DNA of 45,817 nt from a virus, in IMG/VR virus record IMGVR_UViG_3300031251_000978, positions 1-45,817 of that record; one strand, written 5' to 3'. Positions 6,672 to 40,077 of the stretch are shown piece by piece (the stretch's first letter is position 1; every line of letters begins with the position of its first letter). The position numbers were made by a program, and so were the translations under genes. The notes under the pieces were generated by a model, which worked only from the letters and a program-made list of their open reading frames with translations, had not been told where the DNA came from and ran no database searches.

Positions 6672-7022
6672 TTACTGAGTGACCTCGATGGTGGTCGTTC
6701 CGTAGACCGTGTTGATCGTGGCGGCGACGCTGAGCTTTCGCGAATTGCCGTCGAAGGAACTGCTGTAGCTGACGATCTCAGACACTCCCTGCGTTCCGAG
6801 GATGCGCTCCTTGATCGCAGCATCAGGGTTCCGGCCTGGAAGCCTCTTCCCGAGAACCTGCTCGTTCCACGGCGTTCCGTCCGTGATGTCGACGAACCAC
6901 TCCCCGAGCCAGAGTGCCAGGCGCGTCTCCACGGCCTGACCGACGGCATCCGGGCTATCCACGAGGAACGCGTTCGAGCCCAAGGTGTAGTCACCGGAGG
7001 CACTGAGCTTTCTGTAGCGCAT
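6672..7022 (-). CDS. Baseplate wedge protein, GP46/gp25-like, 116 aa
   Basis: Start chosen at MRYRKLSASGDY. Contains VETRLALWLGEWFVDITDGTPW followed by IKERILGTQGVSEI, the hallmark of Mu gp46/T4 gp25-type wedge proteins that join baseplate and sheath. Only 0-1 base separates it from the gpJ-like gene. Confidence 0.85.
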   Translation of the reverse strand: MRYRKLSASGDYTLGSNAFLVDSPDAVGQAVETRLALWLGEWFVDITDGTPWNEQVLGKRLPGRNPDAAIKERILGTQGVSEIVSYSSSFDGNSRKLSVAATINTVYGTTTIEVTQ

Positions 7023-7032
7023 CCGATCTCCC

Positions 7033-7791
7033 TTACGGCGTCGGGCCGCCAGTGTTGCCGGCACCCGTCGTGACGCCCGTGTGGGCGTGGGTGTGCAGCG
7101 GCGTGGTCTGGGCGGTGACTTCGGTGTTGACGTGCAGCGGGCCTTGGAGCGTGACGCCCGCGGTGCCGGAGCCCGTGGTCTGGGTCACGTTGCCGTTCAA
7201 CTGGATGACCGGCGCATTGATGATTACCTGCGCACCGGTCAGGGTGACATTCCCCGTCGCCTCCGCGACGATGTCGCCTGAGGTCTTCGCGTGAATCTGG
7301 TGGCTCGTTGGGTTGAGCTCAATGAAAGCCGATCCGTCGTCGCTGCGCAGTTGGACGGTCGTCGTGCTGACGCTGCTGAGCACGCGCGGCTGCGACCGTG
7401 GACCGACCAGCACGAAGCCGTCGGATAGGTCGTGCATACGCATGCGCGTCTGCCCTTGCACGCCGCCCTGCTGCCACCAGCCATCAATGCAGCGCGAGCT
7501 GAACACCACCAGGCACTCGTCGCCAGCCTTGATCGGAAAGGTCAAGGTCGCTCCGCCCCCGCTCGGAAACACCACCGGGCAGTCCAGCAAGAGCGGGAGA
7601 TTGATCGGCGATGTGGTTCCGTCCGACGCCCGCGCCTGAAGGCTGATCGACGGCTGAACCACGCACGTCATTGCACCCGGGTTAAAAGACTGCACAATGC
7701 CGGGCAGCGCGGTCCAGAGGCTGGCTTGGTTCCCCTCGAAGGCAATCCGAGTCGCCTCTTCAGGGTCGTCATATCGTTCGCGTCTGTCCAT
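7033..7791 (-). CDS. Baseplate spike protein (gpV/gp45-like), 252 aa
   Basis: Start at MDRRERYDD (ATG 7791); the upstream extension would run through the oppositely oriented moron and lacks phage-like sequence. It has an N-terminal OB-type domain (residues ~20-130, with FPIKAGDECLVVFSSRCIDGWWQQGG, a motif of the Gp138/gp45 spike family). A repetitive beta-helical stalk follows, and the C-terminus (PLHTHAHTGVTTGAGNTGGPTP) is His- and Gly-rich. That tip matches the metal-binding apex of phage membrane-piercing spikes (HxH). Confidence 0.88.
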   Translation of the reverse strand: MDRRERYDDPEEATRIAFEGNQASLWTALPGIVQSFNPGAMTCVVQPSISLQARASDGTTSPINLPLLLDCPVVFPSGGGATLTFPIKAGDECLVVFSSRCIDGWWQQGGVQGQTRMRMHDLSDGFVLVGPRSQPRVLSSVSTTTVQLRSDDGSAFIELNPTSHQIHAKTSGDIVAEATGNVTLTGAQVIINAPVIQLNGNVTQTTGSGTAGVTLQGPLHVNTEVTAQTTPLHTHAHTGVTTGAGNTGGPTP

Positions 7792-7805
7792 CTGGAGGGG
7801 AATCC

Positions 7806-8285
7806 ATGAAGAGGTGTATTGCAGCGGTTGTGGCCGCCTGCGTTTCAATGGCCTGTCTCGCGCAGGGAAAGTCCACAGCGAAGCCGGAACTGGTCTGGCT
7901 CCAAATCGTCGACGCCGGCATGAAAGCTGGCAGCTACCCGCTTTCATGGGCGTTGGTGCTCTATCCAGAGCGCGCGTGCCCGTTCACGAATATCAATGGT
8001 CACGAATCGATGATCGCGGCCACTATGACCAGCGTCCCCGTGTGTGCTGGAGTCACGGAGACGGGAAAGAATGTCCTAGTTGCGGGACCATCCGTAGGCG
8101 TTCAAACCTTTTCGACGGTTCTATTTGCTCACGCCAAGGTCAACCCGGATGGACAAAGCGCCTCGATTATCGAGACGAATTTCGACGCGGGAGCGAATTT
8201 CAAAAGATACCTCGATGAGCAGAAGAAGATCGTCGAGCAATCTAGGCCCGGTGCACCACTCCCACCCAGAGGCAGTGCGCCCTAA
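7806..8285 (+). CDS. Moron: exported protein of unknown function, 159 aa
   Basis: It lies on the plus strand inside the leftward baseplate cluster, overlapping the hub gene's 3' end by 4 bases. The start is supported by GGAGGGGAATCC before ATG 7806. The N-terminus is a clear signal peptide (MKRCIAAVVAACVSMACLAQG), probably cleaved near residue 20. The mature part has Cys residues in ERACPF and VPVCAG that could form a disulfide. I do not recognise the family. Lone reverse-oriented genes with signal peptides in structural operons are usually morons expressed by the lysogen and may alter the host envelope or superinfection. Confidence 0.7.
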   Translation: MKRCIAAVVAACVSMACLAQGKSTAKPELVWLQIVDAGMKAGSYPLSWALVLYPERACPFTNINGHESMIAATMTSVPVCAGVTETGKNVLVAGPSVGVQTFSTVLFAHAKVNPDGQSASIIETNFDAGANFKRYLDEQKKIVEQSRPGAPLPPRGSAP

Positions 8286-20644: not shown

Positions 20645-22004
20645 CGGGCAACTCCGGTGCCGGTGGCGGCTCTTCTTCCGCCTCCTTGATGTCCTCGTCC
20701 GTCACGTTCGACCAGACGCCGGTAACGTGCGACGACTGCCGCAGTTCCTTCAGGGCTGTTGCACGGTCGACGATCCCCGCATCGGAAGCCGCAACGACCG
20801 CATTGGTGATGGCCGTCGTGATCGTGGCCTTGTCGGTGTCCGACACCTGCCACAGCGGGTTGAACTCGAAGTCGAACGACTCTGGTGGCGGCTCGCCCAG
20901 TTCCGAGCGGAAGAGCGCGTCGTAGACCTTCCCCACTCCCGTGCGAAGCCGTCGCTCCTGCTGCTGCTTGACGTTGTCGTAGTAGTTGCGGATGTCGCTC
21001 TCGCCCGTGCTGCTCAAGCCCGCCGGAGACTGACCGAACAACCGCACCAGCGGAATGCCGAGCGCGCCGCTGATTTGCTGGCCGAACTGCAGGAGAACAT
21101 CATTCAAGCCCGCGAACGTGTACTGGTGGGCCTCGAATTCGTCATTGCTGTCCATGAGGGTCATGCCCTCGTTGGACTGAAACTGACGGATCATGTCGAT
21201 CTGCTTCAGAAGCCCGTCGTAGGACTTGCCACCCATGGCGATGACCTCGCGCAGGTTCTGGACCTTATAGGTGCGAAGGTGCGCTTTGAACACCAGCTGA
21301 GCAGCCCCTTGCGTGGTGCTGTCGAACGCCACAAGGCGATCCCATAGGCGCTCAAGCACAGACTGGCCCCAGCCGTTCTCCGCGATCCGCTGCCAATACG
21401 GCAGGTCAACGCCCTCCACCCGAATCACCCGCGAGTGATGGATGCGCATATTCACCAGGGCCTGAGCGTCCGCGATCACGTCGTAGAACTTCGGCTTCCC
21501 CATCTCAGGGCCGAAGTCGGTGATCAGATCCTGTAGCGTGGGCTGGACAACCCACCGATCGAGCGGCAGCAGTCCCTTGAATTGCCCCTTCTGGATCGTG
21601 TCCAGATTCAGCGGCGTGTCTGGCTTTTGACCGTCGATCATCAGCACCGCGACGCAACCGCCATAGAGCCGCGACCATTTGACCGTATCGTTCAGCGCAT
21701 CCCAGATCTGCAGCCGGCCAGCAGCCTTCTGCAGCGACTCCATGTCGTCCGGGGGAATGTCACCCTTGAGCTCGATCCCCTGCCGGGTCATGTCGTCAGC
21801 GTAGGTGTCCACGGCCTGACCAGCGATCCAGCTGGAGCGGTAGACGAACTCCATCTCCACCCGGTTGCGGGACATCGGCGAGAAGCCATAGCGATTCCCG
21901 TCGCTCAGGTTCCCCGTGCCCATCCCCACGCGCGCAGAGAAGTTCTGGAAGCTGTCCTTGGTAGCGACCTGGCGGGCGCGGGCGGCTCGTGTTTGTCTTT
22001 TCAT
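20550..22004 (-). CDS. Portal protein (DUF1073), 484 aa
   Basis: I choose MKRQTRAARARQ at ATG 22004 because it overlaps the terminase stop (ATGA). Family motifs: DSFQNFSARVGMGTGNLSDGNRYGF, YRSSWIAGQAVDTYADDMTRQGIE, WSRLYGGCVAVLMIDGQ, FGQSPAGLSSTGESDIRNYYD. The last ~60 residues are acidic and Pro-rich. It forms the 12-mer ring for DNA entry and exit. Confidence 0.93.
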   Translation of the reverse strand: MKRQTRAARARQVATKDSFQNFSARVGMGTGNLSDGNRYGFSPMSRNRVEMEFVYRSSWIAGQAVDTYADDMTRQGIELKGDIPPDDMESLQKAAGRLQIWDALNDTVKWSRLYGGCVAVLMIDGQKPDTPLNLDTIQKGQFKGLLPLDRWVVQPTLQDLITDFGPEMGKPKFYDVIADAQALVNMRIHHSRVIRVEGVDLPYWQRIAENGWGQSVLERLWDRLVAFDSTTQGAAQLVFKAHLRTYKVQNLREVIAMGGKSYDGLLKQIDMIRQFQSNEGMTLMDSNDEFEAHQYTFAGLNDVLLQFGQQISGALGIPLVRLFGQSPAGLSSTGESDIRNYYDNVKQQQERRLRTGVGKVYDALFRSELGEPPPESFDFEFNPLWQVSDTDKATITTAITNAVVAASDAGIVDRATALKELRQSSHVTGVWSNVTDEDIKEAEEEPPPAPELPDENAGPGQDPAAELSKPSEAEAGGKGVRAAA

Positions 22005-23398
22005 CCTGCAAGCCTTGCCCATATTTCGATCGCCCGAGCGCCTGGCGGGTAGCACATGACGAAGGCATCGGCCAAGTTCGGAGAAGCAACCTCCCGCTTG
22101 GCCAAATCCTTCTTGCTCTCCACCTTGACGCGCCCGTTCTGGTCGTAGTCACGCTTCGGAGTCGACAACTCATCGACCAAACGATCCAGGTGCGGGCAGT
22201 CGCTCGCGATGCTGATCAACTGGTCGTCATCGAACTTCTCGCCCCGATGCACGGCGTTGTAGGTGTTCCTGAACCTGTCCGCCAGCATCCACCAAGCCTG
22301 TGCCTTGATGTTGGCGAACATGTCCTTGTTCGTGATGCCTGGCTGGTAGCTCCTATCCGGCTCCCAGACCTGAGCACCAGCGTTGAACTTCTCGTAGCTG
22401 ACCAGGAAGGTCTCGCCCTCCGACCGACGCTGGTCGTTGATCTCGCCGAACTTCGCGCCCGACCCGGCGCCGACGCCGATCGAGTCGTAGGTCACGGAAG
22501 CTTCGCGACCGCGCGCCGCGGCGTAGGTCCGAGCGCAACTCTTGAGCAATTCGTCCTCGCCAGCCTTCCACTCGTCTGCCCAACTCACCACGGAGCCGTA
22601 TGCGAAGACGTTGGCGCACTTGTCGTTGCCGCTGTCGGCGACGTCGAAGCCGATGCGCTTCGATCCAGATGCTTCGAAGCCGATCTTCTTGTGGGCGTCG
22701 ATCGCTGCGAGTACCCACGAGCGTTTGATGATCGCCGCGTCGTCGTCGTCCTTCGGCATCCCTTCGTAGATGTGAAGGTACTCGTCATGGTCCTCGAGCT
22801 TCGCCGCCTCGATGATCTTCAGCATCGTCTCCGACAGGAATGGGTTCTCGTCGTAGTTGATTTTCCGGATGATCGTGTCGGGCGGTGGGCTCGTGACGAA
22901 GCGCTTGTACGCAAAGTCGGTAGCCAACTTCGGGTTGAAAATCACCCACACCTGTGAGCCGGCCTTCCGGATCGTCGGCTCCAGGATCTTCCACTGCTCC
23001 TCGGTGAGGTTGTGCGCTTCCTCGATCCAGAGGATGTCAATGCTCTCCAGCGACTTGATTTCGTCAATCGACCGCCACAGGCCGTAGAACAGGAACTCAC
23101 TGCCCGTTCTACGCCCTCGGATCTTGTTGTCCAGCACGGTGAAGCGCGGGCTCAGGCCGAAGCGCTCGATCTGCATCTTCAGCAGCGTGTAGACCGACTC
23201 CTCGATCTTGTTCTGGAACTGCCGCACGCAAAGGACGCGAATCTTGCATTTGTCCGCCAGGTACGTGACGAAGCCCGCGGCATCCCATGACTTCGACGAA
23301 GCCCGCCCCCCATAAAGAACACGGTTGCGCGCCGGCGTGAGCCAGAAGTCACGCAGCGCGGGGTTCAGGCTTGGGGAGGCCTCCATAGAAGTCGTCAA
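22001..23398 (-). CDS. terL: Terminase large subunit, 465 aa
   Basis: ATPase domain with Walker A-like GGRASSKS (~residues 30-37), the region RVLCVRQFQNKIEESVY, and Walker B IDILWIEEAHN. The nuclease domain contains GFDVADSGNDKCANVF with the first catalytic Asp and later NLADAFVMCY. The sequence belongs to the PBSX-like Terminase_3 group. It packages DNA into proheads with the small subunit encoded upstream, whose gene overlaps it by 50 bases. Confidence 0.94.
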   Translation of the reverse strand: MTTSMEASPSLNPALRDFWLTPARNRVLYGGRASSKSWDAAGFVTYLADKCKIRVLCVRQFQNKIEESVYTLLKMQIERFGLSPRFTVLDNKIRGRRTGSEFLFYGLWRSIDEIKSLESIDILWIEEAHNLTEEQWKILEPTIRKAGSQVWVIFNPKLATDFAYKRFVTSPPPDTIIRKINYDENPFLSETMLKIIEAAKLEDHDEYLHIYEGMPKDDDDAAIIKRSWVLAAIDAHKKIGFEASGSKRIGFDVADSGNDKCANVFAYGSVVSWADEWKAGEDELLKSCARTYAAARGREASVTYDSIGVGAGSGAKFGEINDQRRSEGETFLVSYEKFNAGAQVWEPDRSYQPGITNKDMFANIKAQAWWMLADRFRNTYNAVHRGEKFDDDQLISIASDCPHLDRLVDELSTPKRDYDQNGRVKVESKKDLAKREVASPNLADAFVMCYPPGARAIEIWARLAG

Positions 23399-35407: not shown

Positions 35408-36067
35408 TCAGGCCTTTGCGGTGTCAGCCAGCATCGGAGTGCGCGCCATGCGCCAGTCCATGGCGTAGGAGCGCAGAGCCGACTTGCGCTGGTCGTAGGC
35501 GAAGCCGCGACCAATCAAGACCGCGTTGCGCTCTTCGAGGTGCGTCAGGAGCGCGAGGTCGTCGACACTGAGCGCATCACGGTCCAGTCCCTTGAACTCG
35601 CCGGCGAGGATGCTGTTGATCAGCCGAGCCTCGTTGCAGTAATGTTGAGCCGCAGTCACCTTGCCGTCGTCGGCGCGGGTGAGGCGCAGCATCTCGCTCA
35701 TCACCTTGTATGTGGCCGCGCATTGGTTGCGCTCCTTGCGCCAGTCAACCTTGCCGCGAATCAGAAGATCGATCTGCTCGTCGCACCAGACTGCGAAGTC
35801 CACATCGAGCCAGCGCGCGAAGGCGACGGCGAGGCGTGGATGCAGCCACGTTCCACCAGAAGCGCCGCGCTTCGTTTTCAAATACCCGGAAAGTCGGGTA
35901 TTCGAATCGCGGCGCAGGATGGCGGCCACGTAGTCCTTGGTATCTTGGTTCGCGAGCCAGTGATCGACGCGCTTGCTGAACTTCGCCGCCGCCTGTGTGG
36001 CGTTGAACCAGCCATCGTCCTGGTAGGCGATGGCATGCCCTTGGTAGTCGCGGGTGACGATCTGCAT
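35408..36067 (-). CDS. KilA-N domain protein, 219 aa
   Basis: Residues ~10-105 are KilA-N: AYQDDGWFNATQAAAKFSKRVDHWLA and GGTWLHPRLAVAFARWLDVDFAVWCDEQID. The C-terminal half is helical with NEARLINSILAGEFKGLDRDALSVDDLALLTHLEERNAVLIGRGFAYDQRK. As the second gene of the early operon after the Cro-like gene it is a likely early regulator or antirepressor. It is the second KilA-N protein in this prophage; beyond the N-domain the two do not look related. Confidence 0.85.
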   Translation of the reverse strand: MQIVTRDYQGHAIAYQDDGWFNATQAAAKFSKRVDHWLANQDTKDYVAAILRRDSNTRLSGYLKTKRGASGGTWLHPRLAVAFARWLDVDFAVWCDEQIDLLIRGKVDWRKERNQCAATYKVMSEMLRLTRADDGKVTAAQHYCNEARLINSILAGEFKGLDRDALSVDDLALLTHLEERNAVLIGRGFAYDQRKSALRSYAMDWRMARTPMLADTAKA

Positions 36068-36268
36068 TTAGGCCGCCTTTGCGCGATCGTTGGATGCCCC
36101 GAAGAGTTCTGGCAATCGCTCGCGCGCCAAGGCCGCGAGGACACGGTCCGCGATCCGATCAGGCAATTCGTCGGGCCACTGCGTCACTGCGGCAGGGGTA
36201 ATGCCGACTGCTTTGGCGGCGGCGGTGACGGATCCCCCGAGAAGTTCAATGGCTTTGGTCTTGAGCAT
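36068..36268 (-). CDS. cro: Cro-like repressor, 66 aa
   Basis: MLKTKAIELLGGSVTAAAKAVGITPAAVTQWPDELPDRIADRVLAAL has the Cro-family HTH (AAAKAVGITPAAVTQW). It is divergent from the CI-like gene with operators between. A candidate promoter, TTGTCA and TAACCT at 17 bp on the minus strand (36282-36304 region), would start transcription at or near the ATG, so the mRNA may be leaderless; no clear ribosome site is present. Confidence 0.85.
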   Translation of the reverse strand: MLKTKAIELLGGSVTAAAKAVGITPAAVTQWPDELPDRIADRVLAALARERLPELFGASNDRAKAA

Positions 36269-36277
36269 GCCGTGAGG

Positions 36278-36352
36278 TTAGCACGCTTATTCCATATTGA
36301 CAAAGCCCGCTTAGTGAAGTCGGGTATGTAATCATGCTTATGACGACGCTTA
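36278..36352. promoter_or_regulatory. oR-like operator array between cro and the CI-like gene
   Basis: The best site is TTAGCACGCTTA (36278-36289). More divergent copies with the GCTTA half-site lie at 36302-36313, 36329-36340 and 36341-36352. The first overlaps the -10 of the leftward cro promoter. TTGACA (36297-36302) and TATGTA (36325-36330) could belong to the rightward repressor promoter, but their 22-bp spacing is poor, which suits a promoter needing activation. The last two sites cover the CI-like start. Confidence 0.65.
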
Positions 36353-36828
36353 TCGAGCGCATGGAGGAACTCATGCGTGCAACCCAGTGGGACGTGGCCA
36401 ACGTCGCGAAGGTTGCGGGCGTGACCGAGTCAGCCGTTTATCAATGGCTGGGCAAGGGAAGCAAGGCCATCCATTCCATTGGCAAGATCGAGGCAGCGTC
36501 GAAGCTTGAGAAGGCAACCGGTTTTTGTGCGCTCTGGATCGCCAAGGGGAAAGGACCAAAGCGTCTTCCACTTGGTGGTCAATCGGCTGCTCAAAGTGAA
36601 CTGCCGCAGCCGCCGTCGACCCTTGAACTTTTGCAGGCGCTCGTTGCAAAGCTTGAGATAGCTGACGAGATCACCCGTTTGCAGGCCGCGCCGCTTTTTG
36701 AACGGATGGCTCGGGATCGCGCCATGGCCGATGCAATTGCTTCAAAACTCGCGTCCTTGCTTGATGGGCCAACCCTGACAGTTGAGACCAAAGATTTCAC
36801 AAAAAAACAAACAAGACCAATCTCTTGA
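36334..36828 (+). CDS. CI-like HTH repressor without autoprotease domain, 164 aa
   Basis: N-terminal HTH_3-like domain (MRATQWDVANVAKVAGVTESAVYQWLGKGSKAIHSIGKIEAASKLEKATGF, core ~residues 15-70) followed by ~90 mostly helical residues (LELLQALVAKLEIADEITRLQAAPLFERMARDRA). No S24/LexA-type Ser-Lys protease domain is present, so RecA-driven self-cleavage is not expected. Starts at 36340 and 36361 are also possible. It is followed after 3 bases by a HipA-like kinase gene, an arrangement like HipB-HipA. Confidence 0.8.
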   Translation: MLMTTLIERMEELMRATQWDVANVAKVAGVTESAVYQWLGKGSKAIHSIGKIEAASKLEKATGFCALWIAKGKGPKRLPLGGQSAAQSELPQPPSTLELLQALVAKLEIADEITRLQAAPLFERMARDRAMADAIASKLASLLDGPTLTVETKDFTKKQTRPIS

Positions 36829-36831
36829 CCT

Positions 36832-37563
36832 ATGGCGCAGTTGAGTCTCCTCCCAGTCAACGTCACAGCAATCGTTCCGTCCGTCTCGGTCGGCCTCGAC
36901 GGCAAAGATCTGAAATGGGTTGCCCGCGGGGACGATGGGAACGACTACGCTATGAAGACGGTAGCCGATTCGGAGACGCTCCCGCTGAGCGAGTGGGTCT
37001 GCTACTCCATGTGGGGCGAATGCGGTCTTCCTGTCCCGGACTGCGCAGTTCTTGTGCGTAGATCAGATCCGCCCGCGTTCGGCTCGCGTATCGAACTGCA
37101 GTCCTATCAGTTGCCGAAAGGTCCCGCTTCGTTCTATACGATCGCACAGTACTTTCGCCCTCACCTCGCCGACCTTGGCCGCCTCTACCCGGCAGATGCC
37201 TTTCTTCCCAACAATGATCGGCACGGCAGGAATGTCATATTTCGGCAGCAACTCACGGGGACCACGATGGTCTCCATTGATTTCTCAAGGGCATGGCTTC
37301 AATCTGGACAGCCCTTTGGAGATATGAACTCATTGACTGGAAGCCATACTGCGAAGTGGTGGCATCACTTTCGGGACCTTATGAACGTCAAGGCGGACCA
37401 CGACGCACTCGACAAAATTCTCGCGCTGCCTGACGACTGGATGCTCAAGACAATCAGCCAAGCGCCCGCAGAGTGGTCAGCCAATATCAACCTTACAGCT
37501 GTTGACGATTTCTGGAGAAATCAGCGCCAAGCCCGTGCCACCAGTGCGAAAATGTGGCTATGA
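36832..37563 (+). CDS. HipA-like kinase in the rex position, 243 aa
   Basis: The fold signature is that of compact HipA_2-type kinases: nucleotide-binding Lys42 in DYAMKTV, Glu54 in the next helix, hinge-like IELQSYQLP, catalytic loop AFLPNNDRHGRN (Asp129, Asn134) and metal-binding Asp150 in VSIDFSRAW. All key residues are present, so it should be active. At 243 aa it is much shorter than HipA (~440) and lacks its N-subdomain. It is in one operon with the CI-like gene (3-base gap) and overlaps its partner by 4 bases. Likely expressed in the lysogen; a toxin or infection-triggered defence role is inferred. Confidence 0.7.
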   Translation: MAQLSLLPVNVTAIVPSVSVGLDGKDLKWVARGDDGNDYAMKTVADSETLPLSEWVCYSMWGECGLPVPDCAVLVRRSDPPAFGSRIELQSYQLPKGPASFYTIAQYFRPHLADLGRLYPADAFLPNNDRHGRNVIFRQQLTGTTMVSIDFSRAWLQSGQPFGDMNSLTGSHTAKWWHHFRDLMNVKADHDALDKILALPDDWMLKTISQAPAEWSANINLTAVDDFWRNQRQARATSAKMWL

Positions 37564-38396
37564 CAGCGATAGCGCGAACGCGCTTGATCAACTTTCGACC
37601 ATATCGCCATCGAGGCGAGCAATGCACGCTTGGGCTCATCGTTTTTCGGCCTGATGGATCCGTTTCCGCACATTTGGGAGAGCATCTTCGCAAAGCCAGT
37701 GCGATGGACCCGTCGTGCAACCTAGCCGACTTACGCGACGGCGTTGCCGCTATCGCCACTGAGATTCAGGCCCATCCCTTAGCCGCGACGCTTTACGAGG
37801 ATGGCGTCGGGGCCATCAGCTTGAGCCGTGATGAGGGACAGTTTGAGTACGTCTCGGAAGAAGAATTCAGGACAGCGATTCTCTGGTCACTAGCGGTTGC
37901 CGTCGAGCCGCACAAGCCATCCAATGTGCGAGCACCTCGTGCTGCCGTGTCACGGCTGTTTATCGAAGTGAAGTCAGCGTTTGAGACATACGGCTGGCTG
38001 GCGACACCAGGCGAAACGCTGGCTGCGCACAAAATCATTCCTAGGTTCGCCTTGTCACTTGAGGAAGGTCTCACAGTCGACTTCGCGCTTCAAAACGGCG
38101 CATTGAACTGCATACAGACCCTCGACTATCGCAGCAACGCAGAGCATCGGAAAGTTGAGGCGAACGCGAAGTTGCTGACCCTCGGACTGGCTACGTCCTT
38201 CGCGCCCAAACAGAAGGCCCAGCGCTTCGCCTTGATTGCGGGAGCGGGAATAGAAATCGCACAGCCAGGGCTGAGGTTGGCGGAGCGCATGGCCGATGAC
38301 GTTTTCATCCACGAATCAGCCGCGGACATGAATCGATTGTTCGAGAAGATGTCCAGCGCGATGGGTCAGGATCCGATGGCGCAGCTCCAGGTCTAG
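37560..38396 (+). CDS. Partner of the HipA-like kinase (DUF3037-like N-terminus), 278 aa
   Basis: It starts within the kinase stop (ATGA). The N-terminal ~100 residues (LINFRPYRHRGEQCTLGLIVFRPDGSVSAHLGEHLRKASAMD) recall DUF3037, a domain often encoded next to HipA_2-type kinases. The C-terminal part (FIEVKSAFETYGWL, VDFALQNGALNCIQTLDYR, HRKVEANAKLLTLGLATSF) is a mixed alpha/beta domain I cannot name. Tight coupling suggests a complex with the kinase, as substrate, sensor or neutraliser. A strong terminator follows. Confidence 0.6.
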   Translation: MTAIARTRLINFRPYRHRGEQCTLGLIVFRPDGSVSAHLGEHLRKASAMDPSCNLADLRDGVAAIATEIQAHPLAATLYEDGVGAISLSRDEGQFEYVSEEEFRTAILWSLAVAVEPHKPSNVRAPRAAVSRLFIEVKSAFETYGWLATPGETLAAHKIIPRFALSLEEGLTVDFALQNGALNCIQTLDYRSNAEHRKVEANAKLLTLGLATSFAPKQKAQRFALIAGAGIEIAQPGLRLAERMADDVFIHESAADMNRLFEKMSSAMGQDPMAQLQV

Positions 38397-38417
38397 AAAT
38401 TCCTCGCTCCCTCAGCC

Positions 38418-38441
38418 GCCACCAACAGGGTGGCTTTTTTT
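38418..38441 (+). terminator. Terminator of the lysogenic operon
   Basis: GCCACC (38418-38423) pairs with GGTGGC (38429-38434) around AACAG, followed by seven T. It isolates the repressor-kinase-partner operon from the rightward operon beyond. Confidence 0.9.
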
Positions 38442-38452
38442 CGTTCAATAAC

Positions 38453-38513
38453 CAAGCGTGCTAAGAGGTTATCGCTTAGCTTGCTTGTGTTTTTTACTTA
38501 GCGCGCTTAGTAT
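38453..38513 (+). promoter_or_regulatory. oL-like operator array with rightward promoter
   Basis: Three copies of TTAGCNNGCTT(A/G) lie at 38453-38464 (reverse orientation), 38476-38487 and 38498-38509, 22-23 bases apart, about two helical turns. They cover a good promoter: TTGTGT (38485-38490), 17 bp, TAGTAT (38508-38513). The first and third are near identical to the site at 36278, so the same repressor should close both early promoters. Confidence 0.75.
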
Positions 38514-38904: not shown

Positions 38905-39053
38905 TGAACGCCATCTTCGGAAAGGCCGCGTCCGACCCGCGCGTGTACTTCGTCTGGTTCGTTGGAGAAGCGTTCTTCAAGAACATGTGCAGCGGCTGGC
39001 ATGCCGTTGTCGATGACTTTGGCAACTTGGTTGCCGTGCGGAGCTTCGCATGA
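38904..39053 (+). CDS. Small protein, 49 aa
   Basis: Start overlaps the upstream TAA; stop overlaps the next ATG. Product [29 protein letters not shown]...[19 protein letters not shown] is aromatic-rich with no obvious span. Coupling on both sides makes it a likely real gene of unknown function. Confidence 0.55.
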
Positions 39054-39211
39054 CCCCGCTTCGCTTCTCCCGCCGCATGTTCGACCAGCACCCTGGAGAT
39101 GCTCAGTACGCCTGCAGTGTCACGCGATTCAAGCGCCGCATGCCGGCGAGCGAAATCGCCCTCTACCTGATCGCGGCGGTTGCCGTGGTCGTCATCTATC
39201 TCACACGTTAG
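39050..39211 (+). CDS. Small C-terminally anchored membrane protein, 53 aa
   Basis: ATGA overlap with the gene before. A basic N-terminal half ([22 protein letters not shown]) precedes a single C-terminal span ([18 protein letters not shown]). Function unknown. Confidence 0.6.
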
Positions 39212-39219
39212 GAATCGTC

Positions 39220-40077
39220 ATGGCAAAGATCAAAATCGTCTCGCGCTACAACAGCGAAACCGTCCTCTTCGAGTGCGATGCGCCGGAGGGCCTCGATAGC
39301 GGGCTGCACATGCGGCATGCGCTGGAGCAGGCGACCGAGGCTCGCGCCAACCTGCGCGGCGCCAACCTGAGCGACGCCGACCTGAGCGACGCCAACCTGC
39401 GCGACGCCGACCTGCGCGACGCCAACCTGCGCGGCGCCAACCTGAGCGACGCCGACCTGAGCGACGCCAACCTGCGCGGCGCCTACCTGCGCGGCGCCAA
39501 CCTGAGCGACGCCAACCTGAGCGACGCCTACCTGCGCGGCGCCTACCTGCGCGACGCCAACCTGAGCGACGCCAACCTGAGCGACGCCAACCTGCGCGGC
39601 GCCGACCTGCGCGACGCCAACCTGAGCGGCGCCAACCTGAGCGACGCCAACCTGAGCGACGCCAACCTGAGCGACGCCTACCTGAGCGACGCCAACCTGC
39701 GCGGCGCCAACCTGAGCGGCGCCAACCTGAGCGACGCCAACCTGAGCGACGCCTACCTGCGCGACGCCTACCTGCGCGACTGTCCAGTCAAGATCGAGAA
39801 CATCCATCAGCGCATCTACGAAGCGGCGTCTGCCGAGGGCGCGCTCGATATGGGTTCGTGGCACTGCGGGACCACCCATTGCCGCGCCGGCTGGGTTGTC
39901 ACTCTCGCTGGCGAAGGCGGCAAGGCGCTCGAATTTGCGATGGGCACGCCTGCAGCCGCTGCGTTGATCTATCTGGCAAGCGACCCGAAACTGGAGCGCA
40001 TGCCGGACTTCTATTGCGGCAACGAACGGGCGCTGGCCGATATGAAGCGGTTGGCTGACGAAGCGGAGGCTGCATGA
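39220..40077 (+). CDS. Pentapeptide repeat protein with C-terminal phage domain, 285 aa
   Basis: ATG 39220 follows TTAGGAATC. After a 42-residue N-terminal part come 29 exact five-residue repeats A(N/D/Y)L(R/S)(G/D), forming a right-handed beta-helix of about seven turns. The ~95-residue C-terminus ([58 protein letters not shown]) is a domain seen with such repeats in phage proteins. Some pentapeptide proteins mimic DNA and inhibit gyrase (MfpA, Qnr); a DNA-mimic role is possible, though here the faces alternate Arg and Asp. Confidence 0.88.
39346..39780 (+). repeat. 29 perfect 15-bp tandem repeats (pentapeptide code)
   Basis: Every unit reads GCC-(A/G/T)AC-CTG-(C/A)GC-G(G/A)C. All differences fall on three of the 15 bases and all change the amino acid; there is no synonymous variation. 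This indicates very recent expansion or ongoing homogenisation by unequal recombination or slippage. Confidence 0.95.

Follow-up and report, generated by a model that had tools for sequence, protein, structure and literature searches.

Related systems

Pairs of a HipA-like kinase and a DUF3037 protein encoded directly downstream have been linked to phage defence. In the available sections of PMC12548924, a HipA/DUF3037 operon lies beside a retron (Retron-Sda1), and deletion of the kinase gene abolished defence. Deletion of the DUF3037 gene was toxic, and deletion of the HTH gene had no effect. The pair corresponds to PADLOC PDC-M66, and its kinase is described as a toxin neutralised by the DUF3037 protein. 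Similarly, the available portion of PMC13092281 describes DS-6 of E. coli, in which a HipA-like kinase is paired with a DUF3037/DUF1829 protein, as a defence system whose activity is abolished by a point mutation in the kinase. The same portion renames DS-6 as HipAD, and gives an E. coli prophage defence paper as the source of the name.

Defence genes have also been placed downstream of CI-type repressors. BstA occupies this position according to the available text of PMC8585504, in which rexAB is given as precedent, and the excerpted text of PMC12894663 locates a defensive RexAB-type pair of P. putida downstream of a CI-type repressor.

The window analysed here is the whole of IMG/VR virus record IMGVR_UViG_3300031251_000978 (45,817 bases). 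It carries a kinase gene and a partner gene that probably constitute a HipAD-type toxin/neutraliser pair, held as cargo in the lysogenic (cI–rex) operon of a temperate phage. Judged from sequence, the pair appears to be a new and divergent HipAD member, and the slot that it occupies is likewise of a known type. As in HipAD/DS-6 and PDC-M66, a HipA-like kinase is followed directly by a DUF3037-type protein; the window pair differs from them in its divergence and its scores under the family cut-offs, and a phage repressor gene ends 3 bases ahead of it. Retron-Sda1 combines the same two kinds of gene, with a retron as neighbour where the window has a prophage repressor. The slot downstream of a CI-type repressor is shared with lambda rexAB, BstA and the P. 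putida RexAB-type genes, but the window proteins are different ones, and their mechanism presumably differs too. No Rex family was found for the kinase or the partner in Pfam and PHROGs. Among the papers listed by word searches of the open-licence literature, no title or abstract opening described a HipA pair behind a prophage repressor. What the window and its relatives add is comparative evidence that suggests an interchangeable cassette, with the repressor an unlikely antitoxin.

HipBA and HipBST likewise share the kinase core fold, and their operons too contain an HTH gene. An HTH gene followed by HipA is the hipBA layout, and in HipBST operons the small HipS gene lies between those for HipB and HipT. 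In the window, by comparison, no gene separates the HTH and kinase genes, the partner is a two-domain DUF3037-type protein encoded 3′ of the kinase, and the HTH protein is a phage repressor of a kind that is swapped among relatives.

Layout of the immunity region

The window encodes a terminase large subunit (22001–23398, minus strand; up to 66% identity to phage records) and, at its right end, a tyrosine-integrase-like gene. In the immunity region, a 66-residue Cro-type repressor (36068–36268, minus strand; Pfam P22_Cro 33.2 bits, cut-off 30.2; phrog_409) is divergent to the operon, and is adjoined by a KilA-N protein gene (35408–36067, minus strand; Pfam KilA-N E 3e-19). A second protein that resembles KilA-N by eye is encoded at 967–1791 on the plus strand.

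The preliminary description had read three plus-strand genes as one operon in the position of lambda cI–rexAB, and this layout stands. A short phage repressor of 164 residues with an HTH (36334–36828) is followed after a 3-base gap by the kinase (36832–37563), which overlaps the partner (37560–38396) by 4 bases (ATGA); kinase and partner both start with ATG. The pair thus lies 3′ of the repressor, in the same orientation and ahead of the terminator, with operator-like sites on both sides. The lambda immunity region has the same layout, with three operator sites per side (OR and OL); the kinase and partner occupy the place of rex. The repressor matches phrog_2328 (transcriptional repressor, E 1.2e-6) and, under the cut-off, Pfam P22_Cro (E 7.5e-4), and an S24 peptidase match was absent in the Pfam search. 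The G+C content of the operon (56.5%) is below that of the window (61.6%), which fits the acquisition of cargo.

Operator arrays had likewise been proposed, and a motif scan predicts three sites in each flank. The motif TTAGCNNGCTTA, allowing at most two mismatches, recurs as direct repeats of the form TTAGC-N2-GCTTA, spaced by 22–27 bases, in the cro–repressor gap (36278–36289, 36302–36313 and 36329–36340) and past the terminator (38453–38464, 38476–38487 and 38498–38509). The third upstream site overlies the repressor start. Counted by strand, the motif gives 10 hits in the 182 nt of flanks against 16 in the remaining window, a contrast that is inflated because the motif was derived from these same flanks. 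The shorter word CGCTTAG was not enriched across the whole window (5 occurrences against 3.7 expected). The intrinsic terminator that had been said to close the operon is predicted at 38414–38435 on the plus strand, where a stem precedes six to seven consecutive T; the scan by itself is weak evidence, since it returned six terminator-like sites in 2.7 kb against 2.2 expected. Beyond the second operator array, a pentapeptide-repeat-like protein was noted by eye (38962–40077).

The kinase and its partner

The 243-residue kinase was assigned to the HipA_2 type from Pfam, alignment, its structural model and phrog_3162 (E 4e-14). Its direct match to Pfam HipA_2 (E 4.2e-6) reaches 26.7 bits, 0.3 bit short of the cut-off of 27, and 30 of 31 aligned kinases match that family. 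The residues named earlier as catalytic, K42, E54, D129/N134 and D150, proved invariant, together with R130, across the 31-sequence alignment that includes the window. The AlphaFold2 model (pLDDT 88.3, pTM 0.87) has a kinase fold, and VIA matches it to CtkA (Z 14.3, rmsd 4.1, 221 residues aligned), PI4KII (Z 13.3), HipA 4pu4 (Z 11.2) and HipT (Z 11.1). The best Foldseek match is HipA 4pu5 (E 7e-5), and the kinase family profile reaches HipT among Protein Data Bank sequences (E 2e-4). Profile search and predicted structure both bear out the earlier call of a HipA-like kinase. The listed HipA chains align to the model from residue 64–152 onward, over 196–211 residues; as the window kinase is 243 residues in all, it has no room for the N-terminal subdomain of HipA, in which it differs from HipBA.

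The partner (278 residues) is the likely neutraliser. It had been expected to match DUF3037, and does so by way of its relatives: it aligns with them along its length, and the family is matched by 29 of 31 partners in the alignment. The window protein belongs to the remaining two: its direct score (E 0.09, 13.4 bits) is below the cut-off of 22.6, and its match to phrog_5137 is weak (E 0.005). DUF1829 was absent from all 31 partners in Pfam at E 0.01. PADLOC PDC-M66 models gave no match to either window protein at E 1. Against L017, the locus of the nearest relative found, they matched the kinase (E 2.4e-4) and gave no match to the partner, and they matched the partner of another relative, L012, at E 6e-13.

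The model of the partner (pLDDT 90.8, pTM 0.56) falls into two halves by its elements. VIA places its C-terminal domain (residues ~130–270) nearest to BsoBI (Z 9.5, rmsd 4.0, 131 residues aligned) and to the Can2/Cdn1 nucleases (Z 8–9), with response regulators at about Z 7. These matches are modest, so we only lean towards a restriction endonuclease-like domain. Foldseek returned no match to the partner model at E ≤ 0.001 (best Cdn1, 2e-3), and a search of the partner sequence against solved structures gave a single match (E 0.012), which was taken as chance. Furthermore, K178, H183 and E186 are each shared by at least 90% of the aligned sequences, and the window partner has Gln, Asn and Gln at these positions, which makes nuclease activity of the partner doubtful.

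Relatives of the pair

Sixty-two loci were collected with kinase queries, a separate partner query and E. coli hits to the Klebsiella form of the pair. After exclusion of 15 contig repeats, the window itself (L001), a comparison locus without the pair (L008) and L002, a weak kinase hit at which neither profile finds a gene, 44 loci were analysed together with the window; a few of them represent one prophage from two collections. Kinase and partner follow one another in this order on one strand at 44 of the 45 loci, window included. The exception, L045, has a partner gene (about 6842–7960) without a detectable kinase, and an upstream ORF that resembles an IS3-type transposase by eye suggests insertion into the kinase gene.

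At 90% kinase identity, the loci and the window form 31 clusters. A same-strand phage repressor (HTH or S24) lies within 900 bases upstream in 20 of these, a cluster being scored positive if at least one member has one, and L019 and L025 having one intervening gene. The upstream gene encodes an unclassified short protein in two clusters (L018 and L036), and a repressor was not found upstream in the other nine, including L009, L024 and L042, in which a contig end is no more than about 1.2 kb from the kinase. L003 and L004 carry the pair without an annotated upstream HTH gene; their upstream status rests on the record annotation, and the upstream ORFs of L003, L004, L015 and L062 lay outside the family scan. 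Among viral contigs, a phage context is given by the selection itself; in the set of bacterial genomes, a phage repressor is upstream at five of eight loci. At L018 (7420–8004), the gene that overlaps the kinase start has an HTH-like beginning by eye and a helicase-like stretch (phrog_16 E 1.4e-8, Pfam ResIII E 8e-6), and may be a repressor–helicase chimera. At L024 (279–767), both small genes upstream of the pair match DinI-type families.

Aligned relatives of the window proteins are 17–47% identical to them. L017 shares 47% identity in the kinase and 44% in the partner, and its S24-type CI is 29% identical to the window repressor. A tblastn search of 50,697 phage records matched neither the window kinase nor the window partner, and named phage records gave no match for the window repressor or for the pair in its Klebsiella and E. 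coli forms. Viral scans with the window partner alone and with the window repressor alone confirmed no relatives, and an empty-slot sister of this phage was accordingly not found. The KilA-N protein led to 17 viral relatives, with neither kinase nor partner in the stretches examined.

Function of the pair

The earlier proposal that cargo in this slot serves superinfection exclusion is likely to be right, given the defence published for relatives, and by the same analogy this is the most likely role of the pair. Defence, the requirement for the kinase and toxicity without the partner come from publications on those relatives, in the parts available. In a lysogen, the repressor promoter would drive all three genes. 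Translational coupling would link the kinase to the repressor stop codon and the partner to the kinase stop codon; the Shine–Dalgarno score of the kinase start (−0.7) is the weakest among 23 starts hand-picked from across the window, the others scoring −2.5 to −12.2, which fits the first of these couplings. The DUF3037 partner would keep the kinase inactive until a second phage infects, when a signal of phage origin would release it, possibly through detection by the nuclease-like domain of the partner. The freed kinase may then phosphorylate an essential host or phage protein, blocking growth of the incoming phage. For the window pair, its activity, the shared promoter, the coupling, the trigger and the target are what we infer. 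Such a scheme raises the question by what means the phage, on leaving lysogeny with the shared promoter shut, would evade the kinase that it encodes.

Several findings were counted against the HipAD-type reading. They comprise the scores under family cut-offs, the lack of a PDC-M66 match and the low identity to relatives; the Gln, Asn and Gln of the partner and the nine of 31 clusters without an upstream repressor; a kinase–repressor correlation that is low yet not nil (see below); and the lack of a tblastn match in phage records.

A bolder version, which we consider doubtful, is that the operon forms an alarm metered by the repressor. Kinase translation would hang on that of the repressor, the worn-down nuclease domain of the partner would read incoming or replicating phage DNA and free the kinase, and many phage families would trade the cassette across unrelated immunity types. 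If so, the cassette would work under any repressor.

An addiction module that serves mainly to keep the lysogen is an improbable reading of the pair; on that view, loss of the prophage would be followed by loss of the partner first and then by arrest. The toxin/neutraliser logic and the tight junction with the repressor gene are in keeping with such a role, but phage defence is published for relatives (available parts of PMC12548924 and PMC13092281) and the slot is known for the defence genes BstA and RexAB (available parts of PMC8585504 and PMC12894663). Addiction and defence are, in addition, mutually compatible.

The repressor as a candidate antitoxin

It had been suggested that the prophage repressor doubles as a HipB-like neutraliser, so that loss of the repressor would free the kinase. 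The HTH gene lies directly upstream of the kinase at a 3-base gap, and the HTH–HipA order recalls hipBA. An antitoxin repressor should co-travel with its kinase. At 21 loci the repressor is of the S24 type (for L033 and L051 an assignment through relatedness or PHROGs instead of Pfam). Pairwise identities across these loci correlate at 0.97 for kinase and partner, 0.34 for kinase and repressor and 0.40 for partner and repressor, all three values being higher than in every one of 2000 permutations. The weak kinase–repressor correlation speaks for some co-travel, but for the most part the repressor does not go with the kinase, and several kinase/partner pairs of 96–100% identity follow repressors that are 24–33% identical. 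L006 and L033 have identical kinases and partners behind repressors of 26% identity, and the kinase/partner/repressor identities are 99/99/24% for L005/L006 and 97/96/27% for L005/L031. More similar repressors are kept in L005/L033 (99/99/77%), L007/L028 (99/99/46%) and L049/L059 (82/96/98%), and in L007/L027, where near-identical pairs have repressors of 81% identity.

Moreover, deletion of the HTH gene in a relative was harmless to defence and deletion of DUF3037 was toxic (PMC12548924, available sections), the pairs of L003 and L004 have no annotated HTH gene, and the window repressor resembles the other upstream repressors weakly (best phmmer E 1e-5, in a small set). By analogy with relatives, the repressor is unlikely to be an antitoxin of the kinase, and the suggestion of a HipB-like neutraliser, which was rejected because the repressor swaps behind near-identical pairs, is very improbable. 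Least probable of all is that kinase and partner are decayed cargo without activity, as the low family scores and the absence of K178, H183 and E186 from the partner might suggest, since neither frame is interrupted or shortened, the kinase catalytic residues and the start/stop junctions are retained, and two of the partner changes occur in relatives (E186Q in L017 and K178Q in L036).

Cargo exchange in the cI–rex slot

The cargo itself is exchanged in two E. coli prophages, ES2 and W21, which have the CI protein WP_032443189.1 in common. Their flanks are 99.6% identical over 1.6 kb before the cargo and 97.9% identical over 2.2 kb after it; ES2 carries a HipA/DUF3037 pair, and W21 another two-gene pair. 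As repressors swap behind near-identical pairs and cargo swaps behind one CI, the HipAD-type pair appears to be an interchangeable cassette of the cI–rex slot. A toxin-type defence pair would then move as a unit among unrelated phage immunity regions, which sets the likely neutraliser (DUF3037) apart from a bystander (the repressor). DNA like that of the ES2 pair was found in two of 5426 E. coli genomes, so cargo of this type is rare in E. coli. The first protein of the W21 pair (L008, 5901–7402) matches PADLOC PDC-M63A (E 2.7e-11), which makes that pair a candidate defence cassette.
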